Shown here one piece after another: positions 53,440 to 63,842 of a stretch of 64,000 bases of DNA. Position 1 is the first letter of the stretch. Every line of letters begins with the position of its first letter. The translations under genes and the position numbers were made by a program. This stretch comes from Paracoccaceae bacterium. GTDB taxonomy: Bacteria > Pseudomonadota > Alphaproteobacteria > Rhodobacterales > Rhodobacteraceae. The notes under the pieces were generated by a model that was not told the origin of the DNA, ran no database searches, and saw nothing but the letters and a program-made list of their open reading frames with translations. Location of the stretch: assembly GCA_030066855.1 (NCBI GenBank), contig JASJAU010000007.1:107145-171144 (forward strand), given 5' to 3'.

Positions 53440-54432
53440 ATGCGCGGCGCAGTGCCATTCGTCGATGTTTTTCGCGGCGATTTTCTCGAATCCGTCCATG
53501 CCGGATACGCCGTCATCGCTAAGTCCGATGGAGAGATCGTGGAGAGCTGGGGCGATCCGGATCAGATCATCCTCCCACGGTCGTCGGCGAAGATGATCCA
53601 GGCCCTGCCATTGATGGAAAGCGGCGCGGGCGACGCGCTCTCAGACGAAAGAGTGGCGCTGGCCTGCGCGTCCCACAATGCAGAGCCCCGGCATATCAGC
53701 TTTGTCTCTCAATGGCTGGACGAGCTCGGGTTGGATCCATCCGCGCTCCGGTGCGGTCCTCAGCCGCCAACTGACCAGGCTGCCGCCGAAGGCCTGATTA
53801 GGCGGCGCGAGGCGCCGGGCCGCATCCACAACAACTGCTCCGGAAAACACACCGGTTTCCTGATGCTGTCGGCCCGCCTTGGCGGCGGACCTGAGTATAT
53901 TGACCCGGAACACCCCGTTCAGAAGGCGGTCCGCGCGACGTTCGAGGAAGTGACGGGCGCCAAGTCTCCAGGCCATGCAATCGACGGCTGCTCGGCCCCG
54001 AATTTTGCGACAACCATACGCGCCTTCGCGACCGCGATGGCAAGATTCGCTGAGGCCGAGGCGGGCAGTGACGTCCGCCAAACCGCAATGGTCCGCATCC
54101 GCAACGCAATGATGGCGCATCCCGGCCTTGTCTCTGGCCGGGACCACGCGTGCAATCACCTTATGTCCGCGGCAGCCGGCAAGGCGGCGATCAAGAACGG
54201 GGCTGAGGGCGTATACGCGGCCATTCTACCGGGATTGAAGCTCGGGGTCGCTGTCAAGATCGCGGACGGCGCCTCTCGCGCGGCGGAAGCTGCAATCGCC
54301 GCCGTCCTGGCTCAGCTTGGGGTCGTTGACGCAGCCGATCCAGGGGTCGCGGTTCACTTGAATGCCGAAGTCAGAAACTGGGACGGCCTGCTGACCGGCT
54401 ATGTGCGGCCCGGCGCGGCGCTCATGGCGTGA
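53440..54432 (+). CDS. Asparaginase (thermolabile type II/AnsA family)
   Basis: VFRGDFLESVHAGYAVI; HNNCSGKHTGFLM; IDGCSAPNFA. Upstream alternative start 53374. Confidence 0.9.
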   Translation: MRGAVPFVDVFRGDFLESVHAGYAVIAKSDGEIVESWGDPDQIILPRSSAKMIQALPLMESGAGDALSDERVALACASHNAEPRHISFVSQWLDELGLDPSALRCGPQPPTDQAAAEGLIRRREAPGRIHNNCSGKHTGFLMLSARLGGGPEYIDPEHPVQKAVRATFEEVTGAKSPGHAIDGCSAPNFATTIRAFATAMARFAEAEAGSDVRQTAMVRIRNAMMAHPGLVSGRDHACNHLMSAAAGKAAIKNGAEGVYAAILPGLKLGVAVKIADGASRAAEAAIAAVLAQLGVVDAADPGVAVHLNAEVRNWDGLLTGYVRPGAALMA

Positions 54433-55294
54433 CGAATTCGCTCGCCGCGTAGCCCTGAAGGAACAGGAGCGCCGTCAGGTCGCCATGGTCGATCCGGCAG
54501 GGCGCCGCTTCTGCCACTTTCGGCTTTGCGTGAAGAGCGACGCCCATGCCCGCCACGCCGATCATGGCCAGATCGTTGGCCCCGTCGCCCACGGCGATCG
54601 CGTCGTCGACCAAGATCCCGAGCTCTTTTGTGATCTCACGCAAAGCCGCGACCTTGGCGTCCTGACCAAGGATCGGCCTACCCACCTCGCCCGAAAGCTC
54701 ATCTCCGGACGTCAGCAGTGTATTCGCGCGATGGGTGTCAAACCCGAGCTCCGACGCGATCTTTGACGTGAACTGCACGAAACCGCCCGAAACCAAGGCC
54801 GCGTAAGCCCCGCTCGACTTCATCGTCGCGACCAGCACGGCACCGCCCGCCGCGTGGCGGATGCGGGTCTCCAACACCTTGTCGATCACGGAAACCGGAA
54901 GCCCTTTCAGCAACCCGACCCGTTCGGTCAAAGCCTCCTCGAAATCCAGCTCTCCCTGCATCGCGCGCGACGTGATGTCTGCCACCCGCGGCCCGACCCC
55001 GGCCTCATCGGCAAGCTCGTCGATGCATTCCTGCCCGATCATGGTCGAATCCATGTCCGCGATCAGGAGCCGCTTCTTCCGGTTTTCCGCATCGACGCAA
55101 TTCACATCCACCCGCATGGGCGCGACGTCCTCCCGAACCGACCGCAGGTTGGAGGGCTCAGCTTCGACCGGGAACTCCGCCGCCTCGTCAGGCGACAGCC
55201 AGACCGCCTCGCCGCCGCCCCAGGCGGACTGCAGGCTGGACACTAGCGCTGGCTCCAGCGCCCCTTTCGCCCCGATCAGCGATACGACTTTCAT
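54422..55294 (-). CDS. serB: Phosphoserine phosphatase
   Basis: LIADMDSTMIGQECIDELADEAG; GDGANDLAMIGVAGMGVA. Confidence 0.95.
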   Translation of the reverse strand: MKVVSLIGAKGALEPALVSSLQSAWGGGEAVWLSPDEAAEFPVEAEPSNLRSVREDVAPMRVDVNCVDAENRKKRLLIADMDSTMIGQECIDELADEAGVGPRVADITSRAMQGELDFEEALTERVGLLKGLPVSVIDKVLETRIRHAAGGAVLVATMKSSGAYAALVSGGFVQFTSKIASELGFDTHRANTLLTSGDELSGEVGRPILGQDAKVAALREITKELGILVDDAIAVGDGANDLAMIGVAGMGVALHAKPKVAEAAPCRIDHGDLTALLFLQGYAASEFVTP

Positions 55295-55350: not shown

Positions 55351-55379
55351 TTGCGAAACCCCGGGCCGGCCTCTATCAG
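55351..55379 (+). promoter_or_regulatory. Promoter-like element TTGCGA-17 nt-TATCAG facing away from serB
   Basis: 17-nt spacing; 7 nt upstream of the 23-bp repeat. Confidence 0.45.
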
Positions 55380-55386
55380 CACCGGC

Positions 55387-55409
55387 GGGACACCCTTCCA
55401 CAACGACGG
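55387..55409. repeat. Left imperfect direct repeat GGGACACCCTTCCACAACGACGG (attL-like)
   Basis: 20/23 identical to 60971-60993. Confidence 0.6.
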
Positions 55410-55416
55410 TCATCAC

Positions 55417-55671
55417 TCATCTGAAATCCTCGCTTCCGTTCAAGGTACTTAATGAAATAGCTGCCTTGCCGTGTGTGAGATTTGTGTCAGTACGCGCCTC
55501 AATCAGGGTGTCGTCGTCCGACGCATGCTCGTGAAGCTTGAGAACGATAACCGCATCCTTCCAACCACCGAGCCGAGAAACGGTTTTGACGTCAATTCGC
55601 TTGCGAAGCATCTCGGTTGCGAACCCATGGCGACAACAACGAGGTGTCAGCGCCTCAAGCCCGGCGCGCAT
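55417..55671 (-). pseudogene. Tyrosine recombinase (phage integrase) C-terminal remnant
   Basis: LTPRCCRHGFATEMLRKRIDVKTVSRLGGWKDAVIVLKLHEHA resembles the catalytic R-H-R/W-Y domain; no N-terminal part; His where the TYxHA tyrosine is expected. Confidence 0.75.
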
Positions 55672-55987
55672 GCAAACCTTGCCTCAGACCTTTTAGACAC
55701 TGCACCAGCTTGAGTAACCAAACACCGGATTGTCGCGATTGCGGCTGGTTGGGATGAAGACACAGCCCGGTTACTCAATCACAGATAAGCAGAGCGAACT
55801 GTTCTGTGTGTTGACGGCAACATAGAGAAAGCAGCGTGAGCGCGCCCGAAAAAACCGCTGGAACGAGGCGACCTTCACAAGTCCATCGAGGATGTTTAGT
55901 CACCGGAGTCAGGCTCGTCGCTCTGCTGCGCGATAGTAAGGCCGGATCAAGTACGAATCCAAGAGCTGGGTCAGAGGAGCGACCGAG

Positions 55988-57082
55988 ATGGAAGAGGTGA
56001 TACTGCACATCGGCACCCACAAGACGGGAAGCACCTCGATTCAGAATACGCTTGCTGGATACGATGACGGCGAGACGATCTATTCAAGGCTTCACACGAA
56101 CGGATCGCACCTTCGGCAGATTTCCACAATCTTCGCCAAGGACTATCAGAAACTGAATTTCCGAAGGAGAGTCGGAGTATCGAGATCCGATACGGAAAGA
56201 TACAGGGAAAGGTACACATCGATCCTCGATAGGGAAATATCCAACCCTAACAGAAAAAGACTTATTCTATCTTCAGAAGCAATTTGGAACGCGCCGAAAA
56301 GAACTAAAGAGAACCTTCTGACATACATCCAAGGAAAGAACATTAATGTCACTGTGGTCTGTTATGTGCGAAACACGCTCGATTTCGCCTCTTCCTGGGC
56401 TCAGCAACGGATACGCACCGGAGAAAGTAAAGTTCGCATAATAGATACGGATCTTAGAAACCGGCTGGAATTCTTCAGGGATCGCGTAGGTTCGGATCGT
56501 GTTGTCGTCAGGCATTTTTCAAAAGAACGTCTTCATAACGAATGTGTGGTTCAAGATTTTTGTCACCTATTCGGTTTGGAGCCAAAACGAATTATCCGCC
56601 TGAATGACGGGATCTCTGCGACAGCCACCAAACTGGTGTTTCATTTCAATAGTTCTTGCCCGGTGTCGTTTGGCAAAAAAAAGTTGCTTAACGCGCGCCG
56701 CGACATGATCAAGCAGATTTCGAAAGCGTATCCGGGGAAAAAGCTCGAAGGACGGTATTTTCAATCAGTAACGCCAAGCCTTTTCGATGATCGCGAATAC
56801 GTCAGAGAGGAATTCGGAATCGAGTTCCCGGAGCCACCCGGCGGCACCGGCGAGCCTGCGGACATTGAAGCAATGCTGCAGGACCTTTCCGATATCGACC
56901 TGCAACCATTGGACGACCTGCTCGTCGCCGCTGACTTTGAGCCAGAGTTCTTTCCATCACCGTCAATAAAACTGGTAGCACTTTACTACGCGCAACTCAT
57001 GAGGAAATGGCCGGACAGACCTGATGATGCGCGGCGGTTTCTTGCAAGTGCCGTGGATACTCTCAAGTTCTGGCGGACATGA
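55988..57082 (+). CDS. Sulfotransferase-like protein
   Basis: 5'-PSB motif LHIGTHKTGSTSIQNTLAGY; 3'-PB-like VVCYVRNTLDFASSWAQQ; AT-richer codons. Confidence 0.78.
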   Translation: MEEVILHIGTHKTGSTSIQNTLAGYDDGETIYSRLHTNGSHLRQISTIFAKDYQKLNFRRRVGVSRSDTERYRERYTSILDREISNPNRKRLILSSEAIWNAPKRTKENLLTYIQGKNINVTVVCYVRNTLDFASSWAQQRIRTGESKVRIIDTDLRNRLEFFRDRVGSDRVVVRHFSKERLHNECVVQDFCHLFGLEPKRIIRLNDGISATATKLVFHFNSSCPVSFGKKKLLNARRDMIKQISKAYPGKKLEGRYFQSVTPSLFDDREYVREEFGIEFPEPPGGTGEPADIEAMLQDLSDIDLQPLDDLLVAADFEPEFFPSPSIKLVALYYAQLMRKWPDRPDDARRFLASAVDTLKFWRT

Positions 57083-58043
57083 CAGGCCCCTTCGCATGCG
57101 CAGCGATTGCCCGGCTGGCCAGCCGCTCGCCGGAGCGCAGACCGCGAGCCAGCATGAAACGGTCGAGGAAAGTGACTCGCCGCTGGTTTTTCCGCGACTT
57201 CGCGCTACCGACGACAGTGTCCAGGAGGCGCGCGTCGATCGAGGTTTCAAGGTAGTTCTCGATCGTGCTGACTTCGACGCGCCTTCCGACCAGATCATCA
57301 TATTCGATCAGCAAACCGCCGGTTTCCGTCACGGCTGTCTCGAACTCGCGGCTTAGCCGGCCCCAGTGCCGGCCGAAGGCGAAAGGAGTGAATACCGGCC
57401 GATCGGGCCATCTGTCGTACCAGTTTCTTTGTTTCGAGAAGCGGGTGTAGGATTCGAGCGCGGCAACTGGATCCCGGCGGATGAAGAGAAACCTTGCGTG
57501 CGGGAACAGTCCTTGAAGCAAAAGGGCTTCGGCGAGCCCAAACCGCACTTCTTTGAAGCCCCAATGGGTGGCGCCCAGGCGCTTGGCGGGATCGGCGAGG
57601 AGCGCGCTCAACGCCAAACGATATGAATCGCGCAAGGCGCTGATAGGCGGGTACGCTGTCGCGATCCACTTTTCACTCACAGTTTCCGGGTCGGGTTCGT
57701 CGGTGAATGCCGGCCAAGGCCATTTGCCGTCGAACGGCGCCAAGCTGTCCGCCATGCGTTGGACGATCGCGGAGCGGTCATAGGCTTCCCCCCAGATCAT
57801 CCAACCTTCGGACGACGAAACCAGTCGTTGCAGCAGGGTCGAACCTGAGCGCCAGCCGGCAGACAGAATGAAAACTGGCGGAGTGCCCTCGGGTTCGGCC
57901 GGACCGACCGCCTCAAAGAACTGCCGAACACCCCTGGCCGGTAGTGCGGCAAGCTTTCTATGCGCCCGTCCGGCCCGTCGTGGGCGCGCCGCGCCAATCA
58001 GGCTTGCCAGCGTGTCTTCGGCCGTTGAGATGGCTGCCTTCAT
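57063..58043 (-). CDS. Sulfotransferase family protein
   Basis: FILSAGWRSGSTLLQRLVSSSEG (5'-PSB) and FLFIRRDPVAALESYTRFSKQ (3'-PB). Confidence 0.82.
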   Translation of the reverse strand: MKAAISTAEDTLASLIGAARPRRAGRAHRKLAALPARGVRQFFEAVGPAEPEGTPPVFILSAGWRSGSTLLQRLVSSSEGWMIWGEAYDRSAIVQRMADSLAPFDGKWPWPAFTDEPDPETVSEKWIATAYPPISALRDSYRLALSALLADPAKRLGATHWGFKEVRFGLAEALLLQGLFPHARFLFIRRDPVAALESYTRFSKQRNWYDRWPDRPVFTPFAFGRHWGRLSREFETAVTETGGLLIEYDDLVGRRVEVSTIENYLETSIDARLLDTVVGSAKSRKNQRRVTFLDRFMLARGLRSGERLASRAIAAHAKGPVMSART

Positions 58044-58201
58044 TGAACCTGCCTACACCGATCCGTAGCTCTCATGAAAGGCCTCGCAACGTGCAGCCAG
58101 ATTTGAACCCCCATGACGCGAGGTGGGTCCCGATAGACCACCAACCGCATCCGCGACACGGATCTCGGGCGACTGTCCTGCCGATATTCGGTCGCCGCCG
58201 A

Positions 58202-59854
58202 CTATGCCGAACGCTCCCGCCGATCCGCGCTGCCCTTTGACAGATTGCGAACGAGGTTTTGGAACTCGTTTGAATCGCGAAACACGTCACAATCCTGCTG
58301 AAAGAGGATCTGAGCGTCCGTGATTTTCCAGGCATGCTCGCTTTTGTCGGCGGCGCGGATCCCGACGAAATTAAAGGGATCGACATAATGCGCCTTGAAG
58401 CCGGCGGCCTGGCTGTCGGAAAGAAACCAGGTGTCCTCGCCAGCCGGCATATCCCTGAAACGCGTCTTCTCGAAAACGCCGCGACGAAACATAAAGGTCG
58501 CTCCGCTGCCAGCATTGCGAAGCATGGCCGGTTCGAAGGATGGCCCTGCAGTGTTGAGCGTGATGGATTCCAGCGCCTTGAGATACCGAAACTGGGTCGC
58601 CTTTACGACGACGTCGGCTTCTGCCTGCTCCAGGCAGCAGATCATATTCGCCACGTAGTCGGGATAGTACCAGCAATCCGCATCCATACGGCAAATGTAC
58701 TCGCCCTGAGACGCGTCGATGGCCTCGTTCAGCATGCCGCCAAGCTCAGGATGTTCCGCGTTCTCCACCAGAACGAGCCCGATGTCGCTTGAGTGATCCC
58801 AAGCCTCCTGAATGTGCCGCTTGGTGACCCGGCCATTTGGGTAGAACACCGCCTCGGCATTGCGCCAGCTCTGCTGCGACACTTGCCGGACGATGTTCTC
58901 GACATCCTGCGTTCGGTGGACGGGACAAATGATTGAAACGAGAGCGGACTGCGTAGCGATGAGATCTCTCGACCGTCGCGTAGACTTGATCTCGTCCAGC
59001 TTTAAATTTAGTTCACTGATCTTTTTCCGCGACGCATCGGAGAGCGGCTTCGCGTAGACTTCCTCCCCCCAAGCTTCGTACTTATTGGCGTTTTGGGTGT
59101 CTTCGTCAGTATCGCGCGCGCGATGTGCCCGTGCGAGAATATGAAGTGCAGGGGCCAGTCGACGGTCCGCCGCCTTCAGCCGAGCCGACCTTGAAATCAG
59201 CGTTCCCGCCTGCGCCAGGTCGTCGGACTCCATGGCAAGCAGCGCCGAGACCATGGTGCGCTCGTACTCGAACTCCGGACGTCCCTCCAGCTGCGAGAGG
59301 AGCGATTGGGCCCTGCCTCTTTCGTCGCTGCGCAACAGGTGAAACACAGTATTGAACACCGGACGCACCCGCGTTCCGGGGCGGCACTCAACCGAAAGCG
59401 CGATCTTTCTGGCTGCTTCATGCTGACCGCCTCGGGTAAGCTCCTGGTACCGATAGTTCAGGGCGAGCGCGGATTTGGGGTCGACCGCGAGAACCAGATC
59501 GGTCCACTTTGTGACTGTTTCGCGTCCCGCATAACCATTGGCGATGTCCAGTCCGAGCTCGAGCAGCTCCGGCGTCGCGCCCTGTTCCGCATGGTATTCG
59601 TCGATCAGTCGCAGCGCGCCCCGGAATTGATCCGGATCCTTCATCGCAAGTGCGATCTGCGCGACGATGTCGGGGCTACGAGGAAACGTCTTGAGAATCC
59701 GCTCTCCAATCGCCCGGGCCCCGGCGGCGTTCCCGTTCTTGCGGGCCAGGTACATTCGAACGACCGCGATTCGGCGAGGATCGGGAGTGACGCCGCAAAT
59801 CAGGCCGAGAAAGGCGTCAATGACCTGGAAGAACGTCCTTGAGACGACGGTCAT
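58202..59854 (-). CDS. Family 2 glycosyltransferase with TPR-like N-terminal region
   Basis: VSIICPVHRTQDVENIVRQVSQQSW; ASQGEYICRMDADCWYYPDYVANM (DxD); GATFMFRRGVFEKTRFRDMPAGEDTWFL; helical N-terminal repeat region. Confidence 0.82.
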   Translation of the reverse strand: MTVVSRTFFQVIDAFLGLICGVTPDPRRIAVVRMYLARKNGNAAGARAIGERILKTFPRSPDIVAQIALAMKDPDQFRGALRLIDEYHAEQGATPELLELGLDIANGYAGRETVTKWTDLVLAVDPKSALALNYRYQELTRGGQHEAARKIALSVECRPGTRVRPVFNTVFHLLRSDERGRAQSLLSQLEGRPEFEYERTMVSALLAMESDDLAQAGTLISRSARLKAADRRLAPALHILARAHRARDTDEDTQNANKYEAWGEEVYAKPLSDASRKKISELNLKLDEIKSTRRSRDLIATQSALVSIICPVHRTQDVENIVRQVSQQSWRNAEAVFYPNGRVTKRHIQEAWDHSSDIGLVLVENAEHPELGGMLNEAIDASQGEYICRMDADCWYYPDYVANMICCLEQAEADVVVKATQFRYLKALESITLNTAGPSFEPAMLRNAGSGATFMFRRGVFEKTRFRDMPAGEDTWFLSDSQAAGFKAHYVDPFNFVGIRAADKSEHAWKITDAQILFQQDCDVFRDSNEFQNLVRNLSKGSADRRERSA

Positions 59855-60934
59855 AGGCAATTCACGCCTCGAATATGCTAGCCGGATGCACGGTGCCGGC
59901 CAACAGATCACCGGAAACATGACGCGGCTTTGGCCGAATTAAATATCCCGAACCCATCACCGCCTCGATACTGCTCATGCTGCTTGGCTTGCCCCGACTA
60001 GAGGTCCCGTTCCTAGCGCAAAAGAAGCGCCGTATCGAGAGCGATCTTAGGCGACGGAAAGGCGCCATTCCGCCGCGCCGCCGGAGCAGGTTCCGGAACT
60101 CTGCGAAACGCGGAAACATGCTCCCTTGTCCTGGGTGGCCGCATTGATTTCAACGACATGATCCCGCAACCGCCCAAGCCGGGTGAACTCATGAAAATGT
60201 CTGCCCATAATCGCGTCGATGCAGATCGTATTCATTCCCTTTTCGGCAAGCGCTCCTGTGGGATGTAAAAAAGGTAACGGTGATGTCAGAGGAAACCGAG
60301 CTTGAGCCGGGTAGGGGGCGTGCCTGGAAGTGGATGCTCTCATGCTCGAGCAAACCGCTTTCGAGACCAAAAGCCACGCCGCTGCCCGATATGGGGGGCC
60401 AGCCGCTTCTACCTTGGCTTTTCACCAGTCCGAGACAGTTCCTCGATCTCGCGCGACTAGCTGCGTATGTCGGCGGGTTTCGTTGGCGCGTTTCTCATTA
60501 TGTCCAAAAGGATCCGGATCCTGATCCGGCCGGGTGAGTTCCCCGGAGCGTATCCGTTCTTGGCATTGGAGAGCGGCAAACGGTGGCGCGTCGTTTGTTG
60601 TTACCTAGCTCGCTGCGGATGGAGACGACACGCATAAACGCACCCGCACTCGTCCCGGCCCTTGCTGTCGCGTCGACGCGGGAATTGTATCTTGAGAGCC
60701 TTGAAGTGGCGAAAAGGACTGCAGATGGCAGCCAAACGGCAAGCTGACCTGAAGTAGTAGCCGTGTGACCATCGAAGGCGCTGCAGTCGGTTTCAGACAT
60801 GGTGTGATGCGGGCCGACAAGAAGCGGAGCAGGACAAGGACGTGCAGTGCCAGATATTTGCCACACTCGATCGCATGTTCCCTTCTCGTTCTGCGACAAG
60901 TCGCACAGAACATGATTGGAGGATCTTTTGGCTG

Positions 60935-60963
60935 TTGCTTTTTTTCCGGGGCTTGCGTAGGCG
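60935..60963 (+). promoter_or_regulatory. Promoter-like element TTGCTT-17 nt-TAGGCG upstream of the serC leader
   Basis: Same spacing to the 23-bp repeat as the element at 55351-55379. Confidence 0.3.
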
Positions 60964-60970
60964 CGTCCGT

Positions 60971-60993
60971 GGGACACCCCTCCCCAACGAGGG
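60971..60993. repeat. Right direct repeat GGGACACCCCTCCCCAACGAGGG (attR-like)
   Basis: 20/23 identical to 55387-55409; overlaps the serC leader hairpin. Confidence 0.6.
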
Positions 60994-61018
60994 GCGCATA
61001 TCTGGAAGGATAGCAGCA
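60971..61018 (+). promoter_or_regulatory. Putative serC leader RNA
   Basis: Hairpin CCCCTC-CCCAAC-GAGGGG (60977-60994), then TATC-TGGAAG-GATA covering the Shine-Dalgarno, directly upstream of serC; agrees with the known alphaproteobacterial serC leader whose last stem covers the RBS. Confidence 0.6.
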
Positions 61019-62173
61019 ATGGTAACCGATACCCCGGCCGCGCGGCCGGTTAATCCGCGTTTTTCTTCAGGCCCCTGCGCCAAACCCCCCGCATTTTCAT
61101 TCGATGGTCTCAAGGAAGCGTGGCTTGGCCGCTCGCACCGCGCCGCCGAGGTCAAAGCAAAGCTCAAGGACGCGATCGAGCGGACGCGCGCCATCCTTGG
61201 CGTTCCGGAAGACTATCTTATCGGGATCGTGCCCGCCTCCGACACCGGCGCGGTCGAGATGGCGATGTGGAACCTCCTCGGCGCCCGCCAGGTCGAGATG
61301 CTGGCCTGGGAGAGCTTTGGCGCCGGCTGGGTCACGGATGTGGTCAAGCAGTTGAAGCTGGACGCGAAGGTCACAACTGCCGACTACGGTCAGATTGTGG
61401 ATTTGACTGCTGTCGACTGGAATGCGGACGTAGTGTTCACCTGGAACGGCACGACCTCAGGCGTCCGCGTGCCCAACGGTTTCGATATCCCAGCCGAGCG
61501 TGAAGGTCTGACCATTTGCGACGCCACTTCGGCGGCATTCGCCCAGCGCTTGCCGTGGAACCGGCTCGATGCCGTCACCTATTCCTGGCAAAAAGTACTG
61601 GGCGGGGAGGCGGCGCACGGGATGCTCATCCTCAGCCCGCGTGCGGTGCAGCGCCTTGAAACCTACACGCCTTCCTGGCCCTTGCCCAAGATCTTCCGGC
61701 TCAGCAAAGGCGGCAAGCTAATCTCGGGCATCTTCGAAGGCGCGACGATCAACACGCCATCAATGCTCTGCGTCGAGGACTACCTGCAGGCCCTCAACTG
61801 GACCGAGAGCGTCGGCGGGCTGGACGGCCTGATCGCGCGAGCCGACAGGAATGCTAAAGTGCTTTGGGACTTCTGCGAGAGCCGCGACTGGATCGCGAAT
61901 TTGGCCGAAGATCCAATGACTTGGTCGAACACGAGCGTCTGTCTGAAGTTCACTGACAGCCGGATCGCAGACGGCGCAGCCTTCGCAAAGGCCGTCGCGA
62001 AACGGCTTGAGGCCGAGGGCGCCGCCTATGACATCGGGGCCTATCGCGACGCGCCTCCAGGCCTTCGGATCTGGTGCGGCGCAACGGTGGAGACCTCAGA
62101 TCTCGACGCGCTTCTCCCGTGGCTCGACTGGGCCTTCGCAACCGAAATCGCGGCGCTGGACCAGGCCGCCTGA
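61019..62173 (+). CDS. serC: Phosphoserine aminotransferase
   Basis: [61 protein letters not shown] lysine. Confidence 0.95.
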
Positions 62174-62240: not shown

Positions 62241-63842
62241 ATGAGCAAAACCCCGAAAGTCCTCGTCAGCGACAAGCTGAGCGAAACCGCCGTCCAGATC
62301 TTCCGCGACCGGGGGATCGACGTGACCTTCGATCCCTCCATCGGCAAGGACAAGGAGCGGCTCCTGGAGGTTATCGGCGACTACGACGGTCTCGCCATCC
62401 GCTCCGCCACCAAGGTCAGCGACAAGGTTCTGAACCACGCGCCGAACCTCAAGGTGATCGGGCGCGCCGGGATCGGCGTCGACAACGTCGATATTCCCGC
62501 CGCCTCCAAGAAAGGCGTGATCGTCATGAACACGCCCTTCGGCAACTCGATTACGACCGCCGAACATGCCATCGCGATGATGTTCGCTGTCGCGCGGCAG
62601 ATTCCGGACGCGAACGCCTCGACCCATGCGGGTAAATGGGAGAAATCCCGTTTCATGGGCGTCGAGCTCCACGGCAAGACGCTCGGCGTCATCGGGGCGG
62701 GGAACATCGGCGGCATCGTCTGCGAACGAGCGGTGGCGCTGAAGATGAAGGTCATCGCATACGACCCCTTCCTGACCGAAGACCGGGCGGACCTATTGGG
62801 CGTCACCAAGGTCGAGCTCGACGAGCTTTTCGCCAAGTCCGACTTCATCACCTTCCATGTGCCGCTGACCGACAAGACACGGAACATCCTGTCGCGCGAG
62901 GCGATCGCCGGCCTGAAGCCAGGCGTCCGCATCATCAACTGCGCGCGGGGCGGACTGGTGGATGAGGAGGCGTTGGCCGACGCGCTTAAGGACGGCCGTG
63001 TTGCCGGAGCCGCCTTTGATGTCTTTGCCGTCGAACCCGCCAACGAAAGCCCGCTCTTCGGTCTACCGAACGTGGTCGTCACCCCGCATCTTGGCGCCTC
63101 GACCACCGAGGCGCAGGAGAACGTGGCGCTGCATGTGGCCGAACAGATGTCGGACTACCTGCTGACCGGCGCCGTTTCGAACGCGCTCAACATGCCATCC
63201 GTCACTGCGGAGGAGGCCAAAGTAATGGGTCCCTGGGTCAAGCTGGCCGGGCACCTCGGCGCCTTTGTCGGTCAGCTAACGGACGAGCCCATCGAAGCGA
63301 TCAACATCCTCTACAACGGCCACGTATCGTCGATGAACACCGCGGCGCTCAACGCCGCCGCCGTTGCGGGGATCATGAAAGCCACCAATCCGGAGGTGAA
63401 CATGGTCTCGGCGCCGGTGATCGCGAAGGACAGGGGCGTCGATGTCTCGACGACCACGCAAAGCAAGACCGGCGTTTTCGATTCCTACATCAAGCTGACG
63501 GTCAAGACCGACGCGCGAGAGCGTTCAATCGCCGGGACGGTCTTTTCCGACGGCAAACCACGCTTCATCCAGATCAAGGGCATCAACATCGATGCGGAGA
63601 TCGGCGAGCATATGCTGTACACCACGAATGAGGATGTGCCGGGCATCATCGGGACGCTGGGCCACACCATGGGGACGAACGGCGTGAACATCGCGAACTT
63701 CACCTTGGGCAGGTCGGACAAGGGCCAGGACGCCATCGCTCTCTTGTATGTCGACGAGCCGGTCCCGGCTGATGTCATCGGCAAGCTGAAGGCCACCGGC
63801 CTGTTCCAGCAAGTGCGCCCGCTGGTCTTTGACCTGATCTGA
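62241..63842 (+). CDS. serA: D-3-phosphoglycerate dehydrogenase
   Basis: GRAGIGVDNVDIPAASKKGVIVMNTPFGNSITTAEHAIAMMFAVAR; GVIGAGNIGGIV; C-terminal ACT domain. Confidence 0.96.
   Translation: MSKTPKVLVSDKLSETAVQIFRDRGIDVTFDPSIGKDKERLLEVIGDYDGLAIRSATKVSDKVLNHAPNLKVIGRAGIGVDNVDIPAASKKGVIVMNTPFGNSITTAEHAIAMMFAVARQIPDANASTHAGKWEKSRFMGVELHGKTLGVIGAGNIGGIVCERAVALKMKVIAYDPFLTEDRADLLGVTKVELDELFAKSDFITFHVPLTDKTRNILSREAIAGLKPGVRIINCARGGLVDEEALADALKDGRVAGAAFDVFAVEPANESPLFGLPNVVVTPHLGASTTEAQENVALHVAEQMSDYLLTGAVSNALNMPSVTAEEAKVMGPWVKLAGHLGAFVGQLTDEPIEAINILYNGHVSSMNTAALNAAAVAGIMKATNPEVNMVSAPVIAKDRGVDVSTTTQSKTGVFDSYIKLTVKTDARERSIAGTVFSDGKPRFIQIKGINIDAEIGEHMLYTTNEDVPGIIGTLGHTMGTNGVNIANFTLGRSDKGQDAIALLYVDEPVPADVIGKLKATGLFQQVRPLVFDLI

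Follow-up and report, generated by a model that had tools for sequence, protein, structure and literature searches.

We analyzed a 64,000-nucleotide stretch of a Paracoccaceae bacterium genome (contig JASJAU010000007.1, positions 107,145 to 171,144; hereafter the window), focusing on an islet at positions 55387-60993 that lies between serB and serC and sits inside the serC leader RNA (Rfam RF00517; leader 60967-61018). Taken together, our comparisons make it very probable that this islet is an immobile relic of an integrative element that entered the serC leader and replaced the promoter in front of it. The locus comprises the following features, with serB, serC, and serA identified through NCBIfam equivalog models, and attL and attR denoting the left and right attachment sites:

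54422-55294, minus strand: serB, left neighbour of the insertion (TIGR00338 equivalog, E=1.2e-60)
55351-55379, plus strand: putative stranded native serC promoter, TTGCGA (55351-55356), 17 bp, TATCAG (55374-55379), called from sequence (upstream score -48.1)
55387-55409, plus strand: attL, the 5' (first-hairpin) half of the serC leader in decayed form, with mutations disrupting the stem
55417-55671, minus strand: C-terminal remnant of the serC-leader tyrosine recombinase (PF00589, E=1.3e-6)
60935-60963, plus strand: putative element-borne replacement promoter, TTGCTT (60935-60940), 17 bp, TAGGCG (60958-60963), called from sequence (upstream score +34.5)
60967-61018, plus strand: rebuilt serC leader RNA (RF00517 full model, 71.9 bits, E=6.5e-14)
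60971-60993, plus strand: attR core, in the first hairpin of the rebuilt leader
61019-62173, plus strand: serC, the leader-controlled gene (TIGR01365 serC_2 equivalog, E=2.2e-185)
62241-63842, plus strand: serA, downstream of serC (TIGR01327 equivalog, E=8.1e-199)

The islet has the layout of an integrative element, i.e., direct repeats at its ends, with a recombinase remnant lying 8 bp in from the left one. Both repeats had been put forward in an original prediction made from the sequence alone, and we recovered them with 20 of 23 positions identical, compared with a maximum of 17/23 for 100 shuffled versions of the right copy over the same 11 kb; the outcome named there as contrary, repeats no better than shuffled controls, was thus not observed. 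The right repeat had also been assigned to the first hairpin of a serC leader, and a full RF00517 match (match cut-off, 35 bits) is present at that position, directly upstream of serC and with both RF00517 stems in its predicted fold. For the left half-leader, folding into the first hairpin is no longer predicted. The tyrosine-recombinase remnant proposed just inside the left repeat was confirmed by its PF00589 match: it retains 84 residues with 49% identity to an intact relative (L060), and alignment with intact relatives indicates that both the catalytic tyrosine (Y to H) and the histidine of the HxxR motif (H to R) have been lost.

Many relatives that lack the islet have serB and serC as divergent neighbours, as had been expected for serB and serC-serA, with a short region containing a promoter and the leader between them. 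These genomes display one contiguous serB-promoter-leader-serC sequence with a single repeat copy, rather than the same gene order and both repeats conserved across distant relatives with no empty site, which had been proposed as evidence against insertion. Litoreibacter roseus carries a 15.2-kb insertion at the serC leader, and the contiguous empty site was found in 13 of the 14 other Litoreibacter-genus genomes read; the fourteenth (G293) has a promoter of the element type defined below at serC, and a decayed half-leader beside serB.

We then evaluated how specific the integrase is for this site. When the integrase remnant alone was used as a query against 199 genomes of the same bacterial family, six strong matches were obtained (window included), all six beside a half serC leader, and none of the weaker matches in these genomes was next to one. 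A second scan, in which an alignment of the strong matches was used to query a species-genome collection, yielded 51 alphaproteobacterial loci at ≥42% identity. A half-leader followed the integrase stop, on the opposite strand and with ≤3 edits, at 49/49 loci with ≥51% identity, often with serB next in line, and was not found after the integrase at two Bradyrhizobium loci (42-45% identity). At least two leader matches were detected in 34 of the 50 carrier genomes, and the 22 leader pairs located on the same contig span 0.75 to 27 kb, most commonly 10-11 kb. In a tree of 139 integrases, leader-associated rows fell chiefly in one clade of 60 (Shimodaira-Hasegawa-like approximate likelihood ratio test support, 97); the leader marks on this tree came from a loose pattern that wrongly flagged scattered distant integrases and overlooked L134, and edit counts were used instead. 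Overall, related integrases occur at this leader in many other Rhodobacterales, the outcome of a search that the original prediction had suggested, and its idea that a non-tRNA leader RNA served as the integration site and was rebuilt at attR is supported by the empty sites and the 49/49 half-leaders, and appears general across relatives. That this integrase family is consistently found at the serC leader had been missed. Searches of phage and plasmid collections returned no integrase above 60% identity, the best match being a Pseudorhodobacter replicon at 57%.

Four distant integrases (46-49% identity) on viral contigs (L241:10822, L245:10945, L246:11067, and L259:11053) end at a serC-leader-like variant, GGGACACTCCTCCCCAACGAGGG or similar, and from these the serC-leader target may be older than the main integrase clade.

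The two ends of the islet also differ in their promoters. We scored promoter type with a cross-validated measure computed over the 60 bp upstream of the leader, in which negative values correspond to the native type and positive values to the element type. All 35 native sites scored negative, 41 of 42 element-serC junctions scored positive, and 41/48 attL sites were negative; in the window, the left end is of native type (-48.1) and the right end of element type (+34.5), with the same spacing to the leader start. Across genera, junction promoters keep to a conserved pattern around TTGCTG-N17-TATGTC, the native type being TTGTGC-N17-TATCTG with equal spacing, and in L. roseus the left-end promoter matches the native promoter of its congeners whereas the right-end one does not. 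By these comparisons the promoter now facing serC in the window is of the element type and not the native one, a point overlooked in the original prediction, and the element probably brought its own sigma-70-like promoter, with presumed activity.

Across 40 pairs, attL and attR identity was 0.95-1.0 over core positions 1-14 (GGGACACCCYTCCC), around 0.6-0.7 for many positions shortly beyond the core, 0.42 upstream, and 0.26 downstream. This pattern places the exchange within the first bases of the leader and the 5' arm and loop of its first hairpin, a location that specifies a region rather than exact bases. In many attL cores (L093-L106 and related loci), a run of C is shorter by one base (CCCTCCCAACGAGGG) than in the attR from the same genome, a naturally occurring difference that could help to map the exchange point.

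Comparison among genomes thus shows the insertion site, the empty site, the target specificity, and the promoter replacement, and suggests the following mechanism. The tyrosine recombinase of the element would recognise the DNA of the first hairpin (core GGGACACCCYTCCC), and integration would insert the element downstream of the native serC promoter, cutting it off from the remainder of the leader. On the serB side (attL), this promoter would remain with the 5' half-leader and lead into the end of the integrase gene, and at attR a sigma-70-type promoter from the element, with equal -35/-10/start spacing, would be joined to the complete leader and serC. Because this promoter has the same geometry, serC would keep its predicted transcript start and the host gene could stay on; serine synthesis could be affected. 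The window copy would since have lost nearly all element genes, retaining the ends along with a sulfotransferase/glycosyltransferase cargo.

Intact relatives look like phage satellites, a feature that had gone unnoticed: they are mostly ~10-11 kb and predicted to be capsid-encoding. Genes shared in the family include those for the integrase, terminase, head protease, major capsid protein, portal, connectors, and an HNH endonuclease, and PHROGs matches confirm such genes in several elements, along with replication genes. No full tail set was present in the elements examined. Four of them (L087, L114, L109, and L085) largely fit the gene pattern of capsid-forming phage-inducible chromosomal islands (cf-PICIs), with their own terminase, portal, protease, and capsid and no tail genes; another, L107, carries a tape-measure gene, and the window copy does not display the cf-PICI pattern. 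The intact relatives would be mobile and able to excise. The L. roseus element has matches to PD-Lambda-5 A and B (L083:5242-8265), a candidate anti-phage defence system.

Alternatively, the left repeat could be a chance or duplicated fragment, with serB and serC separated by an ordinary rearrangement unrelated to the integrase. The imperfect left copy (20/23), the short integrase fragment, and several lineages in which serB lies far from serC with no half-leader beside it would be consistent with such a history; however, the half-leader accompanies the same integrase in 49/49 relatives, a second leader is present in 34/50 genomes, congeners have empty sites, and a native-type promoter persists to the left of the window islet, and we consider this alternative extremely improbable. 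That second, native-type promoter (-48.1) also bears on the possibility that serC in this lineage has always had the promoter now on the right, which would resemble those of the elements by convergence. Element-type promoters do precede serC in genomes with no known integrase there, including the sister genome, but the left end in L. roseus matches the native promoter of its congeners where the right end differs, and the 60-bp junction sequences are conserved across genera, which makes convergence very unlikely. The genomes in question are G001, G027, G050, G007, and G049; since none of them has a stranded half-leader beside serB, an old insertion is only possible there.

Insertion of an element at the serC leader could also be real while the cargo stems from a different island, i.e., one that carries surface-sugar modification genes with the same type of integrase and is not a satellite. 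We regard this as a realistic possibility, albeit with less than an even chance: the window cargo consists of sulfotransferase and glycosyltransferase genes with no satellite gene left, cargo varies among elements of the family, and a neuB-like gene region lies between serB and serC in the sister genome, but the genes most often shared within the family, apart from that for the integrase, encode terminase, protease, capsid, and portal, and strongly eroded stages such as a 0.75-kb remnant in Tateyamaria would make secondary replacement easy. A broader proposal is that a dedicated phage-satellite lineage attaches at the DNA of a cis-regulatory RNA hairpin and, through the promoter it carries, brings the host's serine pathway under a promoter from the element, with serC expression following the state of the element and repeated insertions leaving promoter footprints where the element was lost; this is tentative, and we consider it somewhat unlikely.

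Several observations weigh against an insertion with promoter replacement by a satellite-like element. The window copy holds no satellite gene besides the integrase remnant; no excised circle or phage attachment site (attP) was read, and viral contigs often end at the integrase stop. Promoter scores derive from related genomes and are thus not independent draws, and 7/48 attL promoters score as element-type. Some of these element-type attL sites are without serB and, at least in part, look like second insertions at an occupied site.

Three half-leaders with an element-type promoter (L120:4704, L113:11056, and L085:19834) have no serB directly beside them; insertion of a second element into the attR left by an earlier one would produce half-leaders of this kind, and is possible. 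In the sister genome (G001), serC has an element-type promoter, serB lies ~11.5 kb from serC, and no half-leader remains; this ~11.5 kb gap (L039:2086-13587) holds the neuB-like gene along with apparent aminotransferase and cytidylyltransferase genes, as judged by eye. Only ~0.75 kb of the element is left between the half-leader and the full leader in Tateyamaria sp. Alg231-49 (L138:9569-10309), a late stage of decay.

Among known systems, the closest parallel to the serC-leader elements is provided by dusA-associated islands, which replace the 5' end of dusA, with putative promoters present before and after insertion (PMC4482086), so that in both cases the island supplies a new 5' sequence to the target gene. 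In contrast to the dusA islands, the serC-leader elements target not a coding sequence but a cis-regulatory RNA leader, with which the transcript of another gene begins, and the part supplied is a promoter and hairpin arm; whereas integrases of the dusA-island family are defined by insertion in the dusA 5' end, the site here is the serC leader. The elements examined resemble cf-PICIs and other phage satellites in their size, mostly 10-11 kb, and in carrying integrase, replication, terminase, portal, protease, and capsid genes with no full tail set. However, cf-PICIs are also characterised by induction through a helper phage and the use of its tails, one element has a tape-measure gene, and the window copy is without capsid-module genes; the elements are candidate members of the cf-PICIs. 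Islands in tRNA and tmRNA genes use a mature RNA gene as their site, usually entering its 3' part. The serC-leader elements share with these islands a structured RNA gene as target and its restoration at one end, but they enter an mRNA leader, at the 5' hairpin, and replace its promoter.

The window leader has the same two stems as the serC RNA motif RF00517, with a promoter and putative start directly upstream, and in the consulted parts of its original report (PMC1273637) the motif is described as a regulator for which no ligand was found, near-consensus promoters are said to directly precede all examples, and use as an insertion site is not mentioned. The element conforms to that promoter arrangement by contributing a promoter itself. 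We found no report in the open-access literature of the serC leader, or any cis-regulatory RNA leader, as an attachment site, and neither serC nor serB is mentioned in a Rhodobacteraceae prophage survey or a Paracoccus virome paper. A cis-regulatory mRNA leader joins the RNA genes used as integration sites, and the locus suggests how an element can insert at the very point where transcription begins and still leave the gene connected to a promoter, by supplying a replacement of matching geometry. Different promoters before one unchanged leader in many genomes also provide a ready comparison for what the ligand-orphan serC leader responds to, and in Rhodobacterales and some Hyphomicrobiales the leader appears to be a place where the arrival of satellites, defence genes, and surface-sugar genes can be predicted.

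The window islet itself is an immobile relic, stripped of nearly all element genes and of the greater part of its integrase. Its remaining contents are:

55988-57082, plus strand: cargo open reading frame of 364 residues, sulfotransferase-like (judged by eye from an N-terminal HIGTHKTGST motif; no family model scored above cut-off)
57063-58043, minus strand: cargo, sulfotransferase family protein (PF13469, E=6.5e-11)
58202-59920, minus strand: cargo, family-2 glycosyltransferase with a tetratricopeptide repeat-like N-terminus (PF00535, E=6.2e-11)

The ~1 kb without convincing genes that had been noted at the right end of the islet was again devoid of them (59921-60966). The cargo had further been described as lower in guanine-cytosine (GC) content than its surroundings, which holds for part of it: GC within the islet ranges from 0.45, reached over the first cargo gene, to 0.64, compared with ~0.63 outside, and the description does not apply overall. 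Finally, positions 60279-60325 contain a 40-48 bp repeat (GATGTCAGAGGAAACCGAGCTTGAGCCGGG...) with ~10 more copies elsewhere in the genome at 85-98% identity.
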